Positions 14,038 through 16,900 of a stretch of 31,432 bases of DNA are shown in pieces (the first letter of the stretch is position 1; every line of letters begins with the position of its first letter). The stretch is from a virus. Under the pieces are notes generated by a model. The model was not told the DNA's origin and searched no databases. It saw only the letters and a program-made list of their open reading frames with translations. Position numbers and translations under genes: made by a program. The stretch lies in IMG/VR virus record IMGVR_UViG_3300046734_000708, positions 1 through 31,432 of that record, one strand, 5' to 3'.

Positions 14038-14382
14038 TCAAGACCTCAGCGAATCAAACAGTTCGAGCTGCGTCCCTTCCGCAGCTTGGCCATGCATTGC
14101 GATTTGGCCTAAACGCACAACACGACGCTGTTTTTCATAAGCCGGCCGGGCAAAGCCAAGCTGATACAAATGCAGGTCGTTCTGTAATAACGCAACAGCT
14201 ACTGCTTTCCAAGATGGGGCTCGACCAGACGCTGCTACCTTTTTGGGCACCTCTTCAGGTATTTCGTCCAAATAGCAACGGCGCCTCCATTGCTGGCGAT
14301 ATTCGCGCACTCTGTCGGTAGCGCATTTCCCAGGACTGAATGGCTCGATTAGCTTGCTTGTTCGCCAAAATTTGTTGCTCAT
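14038..14382 (-). CDS. Small protein with IbrA C-terminal-like motif (last gene of the four-gene cassette)
   Basis: A 114-residue protein. The convincing part starts near residue 24 (RVREYRQQWRRRCYLDEIPE, then EVPKKVAASGRAPSWKAVAV and ALLQNDLHLYQLGF). The block PSWKAVAVALLQNDLHLYQL matches the C-terminal block of the PAPS-reductase-like protein encoded at 15584-16900 (TSWKRFAITVLKNDHTCKYL). This motif is known to me from DUF3440/IbrA proteins, so the gene looks like a stand-alone copy of that C-terminal module. Its start overlaps the 140-aa gene by 128 bp; a later start would shorten this. Role unknown; its linkage suggests it acts with the cassette. Confidence 0.65.
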   Translation of the reverse strand: MSNKFWRTSKLIEPFSPGKCATDRVREYRQQWRRRCYLDEIPEEVPKKVAASGRAPSWKAVAVALLQNDLHLYQLGFARPAYEKQRRVVRLGQIAMHGQAAEGTQLELFDSLRS

Positions 14383-14677
14383 TGCTTAAAAAGCTCCATG
14401 CGTGTCGTGTGATGTCTTCTGGGCAGCGCAGTGCCAAAGCGCAAGCTGCGTGACCAATCCATGCGCGACGGTTCAGGTTGTAGTCCGTCAGAGCATTGAC
14501 GCAGCTGTTGCGCCACTCCTCGGTAACACGTCTCATGTATCGCCCATACAGGCGATGATTGCCTGTAAAACAAATTGCACGCTGTAGGTAGAGGCGCCGA
14601 TTTGACACCTCCCCCCACATATTGAATCTGGTTTCTTCCCATGACTCAAACGGCAACCAAACTCTTGTCAGCTTCAT
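14255..14677 (-). CDS. Cassette protein, 140 aa, family seen with IbrA/IbrB-type genes
   Basis: Starts MKLTRVWLPFESWEETRFNM. Its core reads AICFTGNHRLYGRYMRRVTE, EWRNSCVNALTDYNLNRRAW and IGHAACALALRCPEDITRHA, a helical domain I recall from small phage proteins next to ParB/PAPS-reductase pairs; the cysteines are not arranged as a metal site. The last 40 or so residues are coded in the region shared with the next gene. It overlaps the ParB-fusion gene by 32 bp. Function unknown; conservation of 'FTG..LYG..M..V...W..SC..ALTD..LN..AW' would be a good search query. Confidence 0.65.
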   Translation of the reverse strand: MKLTRVWLPFESWEETRFNMWGEVSNRRLYLQRAICFTGNHRLYGRYMRRVTEEWRNSCVNALTDYNLNRRAWIGHAACALALRCPEDITRHAWSFLSNEQQILANKQANRAIQSWEMRYRQSARISPAMEAPLLFGRNT

Positions 14678-15587
14678 CGTCTAAATCCTCAGCAACTTCG
14701 TCGATCTGCTCTACATCCCAAGCTTTACTGAAGTCTTTACCCAAGAACAGAGAAGCCAAACCTGTGACCTGCTTTAACCGTAACAACTCATCAGGACTCA
14801 TCCCAATGTGCTTGCAAATCCAAGCGTCACCTTTACCCATTTCAATTAATTCAGCCACGATTACGCTCATAAGTTCGATGTTGTGTGAGCCCCGAGCGCG
14901 GTTGTGACGAATGGTTGATGCCATTCGGTCATGAAGCTCTTTACGCAAAACAACGACTGGCAGCCTGCCACCTTCTCGCTCGCGAATGCGATCGCTGTTC
15001 TTCAGAGTCAGATAGCGGTGAAAACCGTCAATGACTACATAAGCGTCGCGTTCTGCGTCATACACCACAACGACAGGCTGCGTGTAGCCGTCTTCCCAAA
15101 TCGATGTTTCGAGTAATGCCATCTCAGGTGGCGCAACAGAGTTGGGGTTGTAATCATTGGCGGTAACTTTCTCGATAGGAACACTGCGTACGGAGTAAAC
15201 CGGGGATCGCCAAGGGTATGAGTCGTTCTCGTCATGCAATTCATCTCCTTTTAGTGGTGGGTTAAAAACGCAGATCAACGTAGTTGGCTGAAAAGCTTCA
15301 AAAACGTGAGCATCGTGATTGTCCAGCACGTATGTCACGTCAGGGCCAATGGCATTGGTAACGCCAGTAGTCTCATTGGTTATTTCACCCGCACCGTTAA
15401 CGCAGTAGCAGGTTTCAAGGTGATGCTGATAGTGCCAGCGATGAGGCTTGCCAGGATGAACAATAGTTTTGGTCATGCTGTAACCCATGCCATCGCTTTC
15501 AGTGACTAAGCGATGGCTAGTAAACCCACCCTTGGGACATTGAACAACACGTTCAGATGGAAGCGCTGAAGAACTGAGGATTTTCAT
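14646..15587 (-). CDS. Ectoine synthase-like cupin fused to ParB/sulfiredoxin-like (IbrB-type) domain
   Basis: A 313-residue fusion. Residues 1-127 match ectoine synthase (EctC) along their length: SDGMGYSMTKTIVHPG (31-46), HHLETCYCVNGAGEI (55-69), VTYVLDNHDAH (84-94), CVFNPPLKGDELHDEN (106-121), then a YP at 124-125. The iron ligands of EctC (Glu57, Tyr85, His93) align with E58, Y86 and H94. Residues 130-260 are a ParB/Srx-like domain: VPIEKVTANDYNPN, then VIDGFHRY (185-192) in place of the GEHR box, and a long helical region with IRHNRARGSHN. The C-terminal 50 residues are helical and acidic. The gene has 4-bp ATGA overlap with the IbrA-like gene. EctC and ParB matches are seen in the sequence; the function of the fusion is unknown. 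Confidence 0.85.
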   Translation of the reverse strand: MKILSSSALPSERVVQCPKGGFTSHRLVTESDGMGYSMTKTIVHPGKPHRWHYQHHLETCYCVNGAGEITNETTGVTNAIGPDVTYVLDNHDAHVFEAFQPTTLICVFNPPLKGDELHDENDSYPWRSPVYSVRSVPIEKVTANDYNPNSVAPPEMALLETSIWEDGYTQPVVVVYDAERDAYVVIDGFHRYLTLKNSDRIREREGGRLPVVVLRKELHDRMASTIRHNRARGSHNIELMSVIVAELIEMGKGDAWICKHIGMSPDELLRLKQVTGLASLFLGKDFSKAWDVEQIDEVAEDLDDEADKSLVAV

Positions 15588-16900
15588 TTTTTGGATTGAT
15601 TAAGGACTTGGCTGTACTTGCGCTGAATGTTTTTTTGGCGGCGCTGCTGCTCTTGAGTAGGTGCTAGCCCTAAGTATTTGCAGGTGTGGTCATTCTTGAG
15701 AACGGTAATTGCAAACCGCTTCCATGAAGTCACCATGCTGTTATGACAAGGCAGCTTGTCAAGATGATCGGGCGGCACTTTGATTACGACGCGGCGAAGG
15801 TTGTTGCCGCCATGACGTGTTGTGCCGTTGATATAAAAACGGATGCCGATACGGTCTAGCGCTTCGATGATTTGATCTGGCAGTCCGCGCCCCACTCGCC
15901 CCCAGTAACGGATGGATTGAATGAAGCGCTGCTTAAAATTTGTGCTGGACTGTTCTGGCAGCGTTGCTAGCAAAAACTTGACGAATGATTTCCACGTATG
16001 CCCTTTAGGCAAACGGAATGATTTGTAGTCAAGCTGTTTGCCGTAGGTGGCCATGAAATTGGCGCCGCCAACTCTGGCGCATAGTCGCGCCCAGATCTGC
16101 GGATCAATGACGCGGTACATGGCCAGACTGGATTTGGATTCTGACATAAATGGCGATGCAACCCGCATTGTTTTGATGGGAATGCCTGCCATGTAAAACA
16201 AGTCGTACAGAGTGTTGTATTCCCATCCAAACTTTGCATTTGCTGTCCAGATGTCTTCTGTACGCCAATCGTAAACTGGGTAGCAGTTGTAGGTGTGATC
16301 TGTGTTTTTTTTGGTCCACATCTGACCATGCATCGTTTCCTTGGCTTGGTTAACGATGGCGCGAAACCGATTTAGTGATTCAACGGTACGAATACCAATC
16401 AAGTTGGCGCACGGTTGCCCTTGGCTGTACCATTCTGCAAACATGTCCCAGAACGTGGCGTAATCCATGTTTTCGATAAACAGATCGCCAAAAGGGTGGT
16501 TTCCAAGGTTGACGATGTAATCGTCGGTAGGCATGGGACGAATCCAACGGTGCCGATCAGCTTCACCCCAACACTGCCAATCAATCTCGTAAGAGCTGAC
16601 AGTACAAGGCAGGGTGATAGGCAGACAACACCAGTAGATGTCAAGAATGTCGCGGTTAGCGCGTAGGATCTTGTGCATAAACTCCTCGCTATGTGTGTAG
16701 TTGGCTTCGTTGTCCATAATCTGAACGCCAATTTTGACGTCAAGATTATGAGAACGAACGTAGTCAATAACGAGGTTTAGAAGTACTCCGCTGTCTTTGC
16801 CCCCAGAGAAAGAGACGTAGACACGTTTAAAGTGCTTGAAGATAAAGCCTAAGCGTTCAATAGAAGCGTCGTAAACATTGGTGTCTAGGTAGGTCCTCAT
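15584..16900 (-). CDS. IbrA-type PAPS reductase-like protein (DUF3440, adenine nucleotide alpha-hydrolase fold)
   Basis: A 438-residue protein. The N-terminus (RTYLDTNVYDASIERLGFIF) leads to the PP-loop SFSGGKDSG at residues 30-38, which binds ATP in PAPS reductase, ATP sulfurylase and tRNA-thiolation enzymes. Further features are MDNEANYTHSEEF, an IGIRTVESLNRFR segment (an LIGIRaeES-like box), YPVYDWRTEDIW, and a C-terminal DUF3440-like block TSWKRFAITVLKND. The length and C-terminal region are those of IbrA, not of CysH (about 240 aa), so a role in sulfate assimilation is unlikely. It is the first gene of the cassette; the next gene encodes an IbrB-type ParB domain, the known partner type. 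Activity in the phage is unknown. Confidence 0.85.
   Translation of the reverse strand: MRTYLDTNVYDASIERLGFIFKHFKRVYVSFSGGKDSGVLLNLVIDYVRSHNLDVKIGVQIMDNEANYTHSEEFMHKILRANRDILDIYWCCLPITLPCTVSSYEIDWQCWGEADRHRWIRPMPTDDYIVNLGNHPFGDLFIENMDYATFWDMFAEWYSQGQPCANLIGIRTVESLNRFRAIVNQAKETMHGQMWTKKNTDHTYNCYPVYDWRTEDIWTANAKFGWEYNTLYDLFYMAGIPIKTMRVASPFMSESKSSLAMYRVIDPQIWARLCARVGGANFMATYGKQLDYKSFRLPKGHTWKSFVKFLLATLPEQSSTNFKQRFIQSIRYWGRVGRGLPDQIIEALDRIGIRFYINGTTRHGGNNLRRVVIKVPPDHLDKLPCHNSMVTSWKRFAITVLKNDHTCKYLGLAPTQEQQRRQKNIQRKYSQVLNQSKK

Follow-up and report, generated by a model that had tools for sequence, protein, structure and literature searches.

A phage gene cassette joining IbrA and IbrB to an ectoine-synthase-like domain is a candidate nucleic acid modification system

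We describe a four-gene cassette in an environmental virus (IMG/VR record IMGVR_UViG_3300046734_000708; the whole 31,432-nucleotide (nt) stretch analysed is hereafter the window) that encodes an IbrA-like enzyme, a fusion of an ectoine-synthase-like cupin (EctC) to the ParB-like protein IbrB, and two small proteins that we term P3 and P4. The four genes form a real module, beyond what chance association would give across the genomes compared, and we propose, at a probability of roughly 0.4, that the cassette is a covalent modification system for nucleic acid, whose target is most likely the DNA of the phage itself. IbrA/IbrB pairs occur widely, in phages and plasmids as well as in bacterial chromosomes, and related sets are carried by many environmental viruses; our literature search found no published biochemical function for the pairs.

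All four open reading frames lie on the minus strand in the order, and with the overlaps between successive genes (4, 32 and 128 base pairs (bp)), that a first-pass annotation had reported. Its domain calls, an IbrA-like protein followed by an EctC-IbrB fusion, are borne out by matches to DUF3440, Ectoine_synth and PHROG 2159. The features, in window coordinates, are:

15584..16900, minus strand: IbrA, a PP-loop ATP-pyrophosphatase-fold enzyme with C-terminal DUF3440, 438 amino acids (aa) (Pfam)
14646..15587, minus strand: EctC:IbrB fusion protein, 313 aa (Pfam and PHROG)
15222..15587, minus strand: EctC (ectoine-synthase-like cupin) domain of the fusion, residues 1-122 (alignment to solved EctC)
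14649..15209, minus strand: IbrB (ParB/sulfiredoxin-type) domain of the fusion, residues 127-313, with motif DGFHR (identity to a set of IbrB proteins)
14255..14677, minus strand: P3, all-helical protein of 140 aa, partner of IbrA/IbrB (structure model and P3 scan)
14038..14382, minus strand: P4, 114 aa, homologous to the IbrA C-terminal tail (blastp and profile)
14255..14382, minus strand: P3/P4 overlap, 128 bp, +1 frame, dual-coding (codon-position divergence)

Co-conservation of the four genes, named beforehand as the observation on which the idea of a module would stand or fall, was found across viral EctC loci and in the isolated phages Gaia and XCL1123. Gaia encodes homologues of all four window proteins (69, 67, 58 and 48% identity by blastp), XCL1123 yields the first three by blastp and the P4 open reading frame by tblastn, and the same genes are shared by phages of Mycobacterium (Gaia and Nebkiss) and Pseudoalteromonas (XCL1123). 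In our first set of EctC loci (80 viral loci and three further phage or genome records), P3 and P4 are present wherever the contig extends far enough; at the sole apparent exception, locus L084, the contig edge still includes the start of P3. Scanning for divergent EctC added 71 new viral loci, 70 of which carry IbrA and IbrB and 61 P3; the only EctC found alone has a contig end 158 nt away. The converse scan for divergent P3 returned loci carrying IbrA and IbrB, except for a few whose contigs end nearby. A few divergent sets (for example, IbrA-EctC-IbrB-SF2) hold no recognised P3 or P4, and neither protein was found beside the EctC-less, IbrA-first pairs of bacterial genomes. Across these loci P3 and P4 are near-constant partners, not strictly universal ones.

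The genes occur in at least five orders (IbrA-EctC-IbrB-P3-P4; IbrB-P3-P4-IbrA-EctC; P3-P4-IbrA-EctC-IbrB; IbrA-EctC-P3-P4-IbrB; EctC:IbrB-P3-P4-IbrA). Many carrier contigs are closely related, and their counts are not independent events, whereas the changed gene orders are; the gene set survives this reshuffling, and we therefore argue for a shared function. IbrA, EctC and IbrB show coding-type codon-position bias over 57 loci. Because near-identical cyanophages, with flanking genes up to 98% identical to those of the window phage, lack the cassette, we regard it on these genome comparisons as an accessory, exchangeable and mobile module.

The cupin half of the fusion retains the hallmarks of an ectoine synthase. 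Pfam places Ectoine_synth at residues 11-126 (E=5.2e-38), the domain scores 135.4 bits against the NCBIfam ectoine synthase cut-off of 128, and it aligns to solved EctC (5ono/5bxx) at E=5.9e-24. The iron ligands E58, Y86 and H94 (Glu57, Tyr85 and His93 of EctC) are kept in 21/21 domains of the first set and in 72/72, 72/72 and 71/72 of a wider set. Most pocket residues are likewise kept, with W21 mostly replaced by F. Cassette domains form one clade (support 100/100), separate from the 45 cellular EctC compared, which were drawn for the most part from Actinomycetota and Pseudomonadota. Position 51 is W in 20/21 and 72/72 cassette domains; cellular proteins have L, M, I or F there, and W in 0/45. 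We had considered a D/E39-to-K change as a universal mark of the clade and rejected it: K or R occupies the position in 21/21 domains of the first set, but in the wider set in 55/72, with N in 13 and E in 3. In these alignments W at position 51 is the steadier mark.

Three cassettes additionally encode an ectoine hydroxylase (EctD). That of L084, which sits between EctC:IbrB and P3, scores 371 bits against the TIGR02408 cut-off of 336.5; its site matches that of a small gene in Gaia and Nebkiss, annotated as GIY-YIG-like in Nebkiss. The EctD genes of L300 (285 bits, under the cut-off) and L446 lie between IbrA and EctC. All three keep the WHSDFETWH motif. Since they are just 32-40% identical to one another and the L084 protein is 64% identical to an actinomycete EctD, EctD was likely captured at least twice. 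By contrast with EctD, EctA and EctB were found in 0/28 cassette carrier records (TIGR02406 and TIGR02407; several records are fragments). The conserved iron ligands and the EctD genes lead us to think that the EctC domain probably still performs ectoine-type ring chemistry, and the simplest reading is that it would make or close such a ring from something supplied by another gene or by the host.

The remainder of the fusion is IbrB. It matches the ParB-like family PHROG 2159 over residues 82-307 (2.4e-78), while ParB_N reaches E=2e-4 and 21.8 bits, below the Pfam cut-off of 26.3. The domain is 59-98% identical to 17 IbrB proteins from several phyla and about 51-72% identical to IbrB of EctC-less relatives, and the DGxHR residues D61, G62, H64 and R65 are invariant in 18 IbrB. 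Amino-acid kinases of the SerK/SbnI type gave only weak matches (SbnI E=0.011, SerK E=0.11, 5uje E=0.15). Because unfused EctC and IbrB are common among divergent loci, we regard the fusion as one variant of the cassette and not as its defining form.

IbrA combines DUF3440 (E=3.4e-54; 183.8 bits against a cut-off of 25) with a PAPS_reduct match (E=2.2e-8). It is about 32-42% identical to IbrA of E. coli phages, Streptococcus and Listeria, and the IbrA proteins of EctC cassettes form a single monophyletic clade (support 100/100). The PP-loop SGGKDS (residues 32-37) is invariant across 36 IbrA relatives except for G33, which is A in one. The structure model (pLDDT 82) matches the PAPS domain of FAD synthase, APS reductase and CysD with Z of 14-16, and the fold search also brought up TilS, NcsA and TtuA among its PP-loop relatives. 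We rejected a role as PAPS reductase (CysH), as the ECGLH motif is absent from the 36 sequences, which also share no invariant cysteine. The kept PP-loop, together with these two absences, makes substrate activation with ATP a likelier activity for IbrA than sulfate reduction. At the contig end of L064 (3924-4256), a second, partial IbrA copy follows the cassette, 77% identical to window IbrA residues 1-111.

P3 is modelled with confidence as all-helical (pLDDT 91.4). Domain searches of the window genes gave no Pfam-type match for it, a sequence search of the PDB gave zero matches, and comparison with PHROGs gave scattered weak ones (best phrog_7052, 5e-4, with 3/21 members matching). We dropped any fold assignment, as the fold search returned no PDB match at E<=0.001 (best 1.7; best VIA Z 3.9). 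P4 has a weak match to the DUF3440 tail (0.002) and aligns to its own IbrA by blastp at 6e-6, and its profile matches IbrA C-terminal tails, best that of Pseudomonas phage Amjad_SA at 2.7e-17; by homology, P4 is a free-standing relative of the IbrA tail. In Amjad_SA and Microcystis phage Mwe-JY13 the order is IbrB-P3-IbrA, with IbrA at the position that P4 holds in the window. P4 thus stands where IbrA stands in those loci, and it may have descended from a second IbrA of which only the tail, still working with P3, is left.

The P4 start lies exactly 295 nt past the P3 start in 81/83 loci. Third-position divergence in P3 is 0.41 outside the overlap and falls to 0.18 inside it, where the third position is the second position of P4, and a wider locus set agrees with this drop. 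By this codon-position signature, the 128-bp overlap is constrained in both frames and dual-coding. Even by itself, a conserved dual-coding overlap with one product akin to the tail of an enzyme is unusual. Gaia gp107 (L001:6856-7146), which is P4, has its deposited start, within gp106, 90 nt further downstream than the conserved P4 start. This tail homology and the dual coding, like the EctD genes and the frequent helicase neighbours described below, go beyond the first-pass annotation.

The genes around the cassette point to DNA. In EctC-less loci a superfamily 2 (SF2) helicase ends <=120 nt from IbrA in 20/25 cases, and those profiled are SNF2-like (PHROG 62). In EctC loci an SF2 helicase follows P4 in 48/72 cases, most of them from one phage group, and belongs to PHROG 16 where profiled; the window has no helicase beside the cassette. 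PDDEXK exonucleases adjoin the cassette in three phage groups (the window, Gaia and the L013 group), and Mwe-JY13 has YqaJ/RecT neighbours. Recombination and helicase neighbours thus favour a DNA role. A tight operon of SNF2-like helicase, IbrA and IbrB is also found in bacterial genomes and metagenome-assembled genomes (gut Alphaproteobacteria, Listeria, Nocardia and Lentisphaeria) and in Streptococcus and Flavobacterium phages. With the helicase upstream of IbrA in L086-L106, L111 and L112, the three-gene operon looks like a stand-alone system; in Listeria it lies near a trigger-factor-like gene.

From the co-occurrence of the genes, the catalytic residues, EctD, the DNA-gene context and parallels to known systems, we infer a nucleic acid target, and DNA in particular. 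As its PP-loop is intact, IbrA should activate a substrate with ATP; the IbrA and IbrB core would then activate a group and place it on nucleic acid, in a complex built or regulated by P3 together with P4, which would act as a detached IbrA tail. EctC would close an ectoine-type ring, whether in a free molecule or on the group already attached; in some relatives this ring would be hydroxylated by EctD. The outcome would be resistance to host restriction or to nucleases. In its boldest form, which we hold quite unlikely, an ectoine-type ring would be built on a nucleobase of phage DNA and hydroxylated where EctD is present: IbrA and IbrB would use ATP to attach an amino-acid-like group, in a manner loosely like the attachment of lysine to a tRNA base by TilS, and EctC would cyclise it in place. 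Known systems offer two parallels, PP-loop DndC with the ParB-family DndB and the ParB-like ATPase DpdB beside DpdA (PMC12839542).

Several points weigh against DNA modification. The 48 helicases on the EctC side come largely from one group, and helicases of PHROG 16 are common in phages. In the closest relatives that lack the cassette the slot holds unrelated unknown genes and is not dedicated to modification, and IbrA and IbrB are annotated as transcriptional co-activators. The modified base is a prediction, and tRNA or a small molecule may be the target instead of DNA. A product on DNA would represent a new type of DNA modification and, with a ring on the base, a new class of hypermodified DNA; should it be elsewhere, the link of a compatible-solute enzyme to a ParB-like protein would still need explaining.

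An unlikely explanation, though one that merits weighing, is a defence or counter-defence unit that leaves no mark on DNA, in which IbrA and IbrB, alone or with a helicase, would detect or inactivate rival systems of phages or of the host. The tight helicase-IbrA-IbrB operon of bacteria, Streptococcus phages and Flavobacterium phages fits such a unit, as do gain and loss of the module between near-identical phages, but PADLOC gave only weak DndC/BrxP matches, and a biosynthetic domain with an intact active site, joined at times by EctD, fits synthesis better than sensing.

We consider RNA modification rather improbable. IbrA would act on a tRNA base in the manner of TilS or TtcA, and EctC would tailor the added group; the attachment of an amino acid to a base has a precedent in TilS-type chemistry, and TilS, NcsA and TtuA are fold relatives of IbrA. 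The best folds, however, are FAD synthase, APS reductase and CysD rather than tRNA enzymes, the window has no tRNA genes, and the neighbours are recombination and helicase genes.

Marginally less probable is a transcriptional co-activator with EctC as its ligand-sensing domain. In its favour, annotation describes IbrA and IbrB of E. coli prophages as co-activating the expression of prophage genes, part of IbrB is ParB-like, and CitR represses the operon formed by their E. coli homologues, ybdNM (PMC9068703). A plain regulator would nonetheless need neither a strictly conserved PP-loop nor an EctC iron site, and no regulated phage gene is known for the cassette.

Lower still we place an auxiliary metabolic set whose free product, ectoine or hydroxyectoine, would serve as osmolyte or nutrient. 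The intact iron site and the three EctD genes would suit it; the lack of EctA and EctB, the fusion of EctC to IbrB in the window, the IbrA/IbrB genes beside EctC in 70/71 viral loci, and substitutions at pocket residues or their neighbours (W21 to F, L/M/I/F to W, D/E39 mostly to K) would not. The phosphorothioation analogy drawn in the first-pass annotation, and sulfur transfer generally, is very improbable: weak DndC profile matches, clade-wide cysteines of EctC-clade IbrA (C91, C92, C99, C110, C274 and C407) and induction of ybdNM and of cys sulfur-assimilation genes on deletion of ybdO, the E. coli ybdNM repressor (RNA-seq, Table 1; correlation only; PMC9068703), are outweighed by the missing invariant cysteine and ECGLH motif and by a DndC equivalog score of 18.8 bits against a cut-off of 290.4.

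The window phage is related to cyanosiphoviruses, with a portal 70% identical to that of Cyanophage KBS-S-2A, and its host is presumably a cyanobacterium. The scan of window genes recognised neither Dnd nor Dpd genes and named no ParA; parS was not searched for. Downstream of P4 (window:13881-14033) lies a 50-aa protein with weak Arc-like/HicB-like matches, which accompanies the cassette in L004 and L005 and was undetected in the cassette-free L201-L204. The cassette slot of near-identical cyanophages holds an opposite-strand 400-aa gene with no Pfam match (L202:6993-8198), with copies in L203 and L204 and a part in L205; the L201 slot holds other genes. In the early region of the related cyanophage S-H1 (L200:8371-12867), broadly the region in which the window carries the cassette, C5 and N6/N4 DNA methyltransferases alternate with two SF2 helicase-domain proteins. 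This arrangement hinted at a dedicated DNA-methyltransferase slot, an idea we rejected, as the closest relatives L201-L205 hold unrelated genes there. A short protein with an HPPCTHLAVSG-like stretch lies a few genes from EctC cassettes (L071:9145-9732, L059:9149-9742, L359:8418-8999 and L375:9031-9588); three scanned examples gave no Pfam match, and by eye we take the stretch to recall motif IV of C5-methyltransferases.

Compared with known systems, the window shares its two core proteins with the IbrA/IbrB pair of E. coli prophages (YbdN/YbdM; DUF3440 plus ParB-like) and adds EctC, P3 and a free IbrA tail. The IbrB-P3-IbrA loci of Amjad_SA, Mwe-JY13 and many IMG/VR contigs have a window-like P3 beside IbrA and IbrB, but lack EctC and a free P4, the tail still being part of IbrA. 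Dnd resembles the cassette in pairing a PP-loop enzyme with a ParB-family protein, and Dpd in its ParB-like ATPase; unlike DndC, IbrA has no invariant cysteines and falls far below the DndC cut-off. Cellular EctC shares the iron ligands and most pocket residues, and EctD recurs in three related cassettes, not in the window; the cassettes differ from the ectoine pathway in lacking EctA and EctB, in an EctC fused to or almost always beside IbrB, and in forming a separate clade. The closest counterparts are gp103-107 of Gaia and Nebkiss, which hold the same gene set with an extra gene between IbrB and P3, and the XCL1123 locus, where EctC and IbrB are separate genes; their hosts are Mycobacterium and Pseudoalteromonas, whereas the window phage is of cyanosiphovirus kin. 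The cassette had been put forward as undescribed, and this holds for the literature, where our search found no paper on an EctC-ParB fusion or such a system and COG3969 was uninformative, but not for GenBank, where the fusion already appears in the Gaia and XCL1123 records as 'ectoine synthase/ParB multidomain protein'. What sets these loci apart from other IbrA/IbrB pairs is the specific chemical hint of an ectoine-type ring in their EctC and EctD add-ons, which the isolated carriers Gaia and XCL1123 make directly testable.

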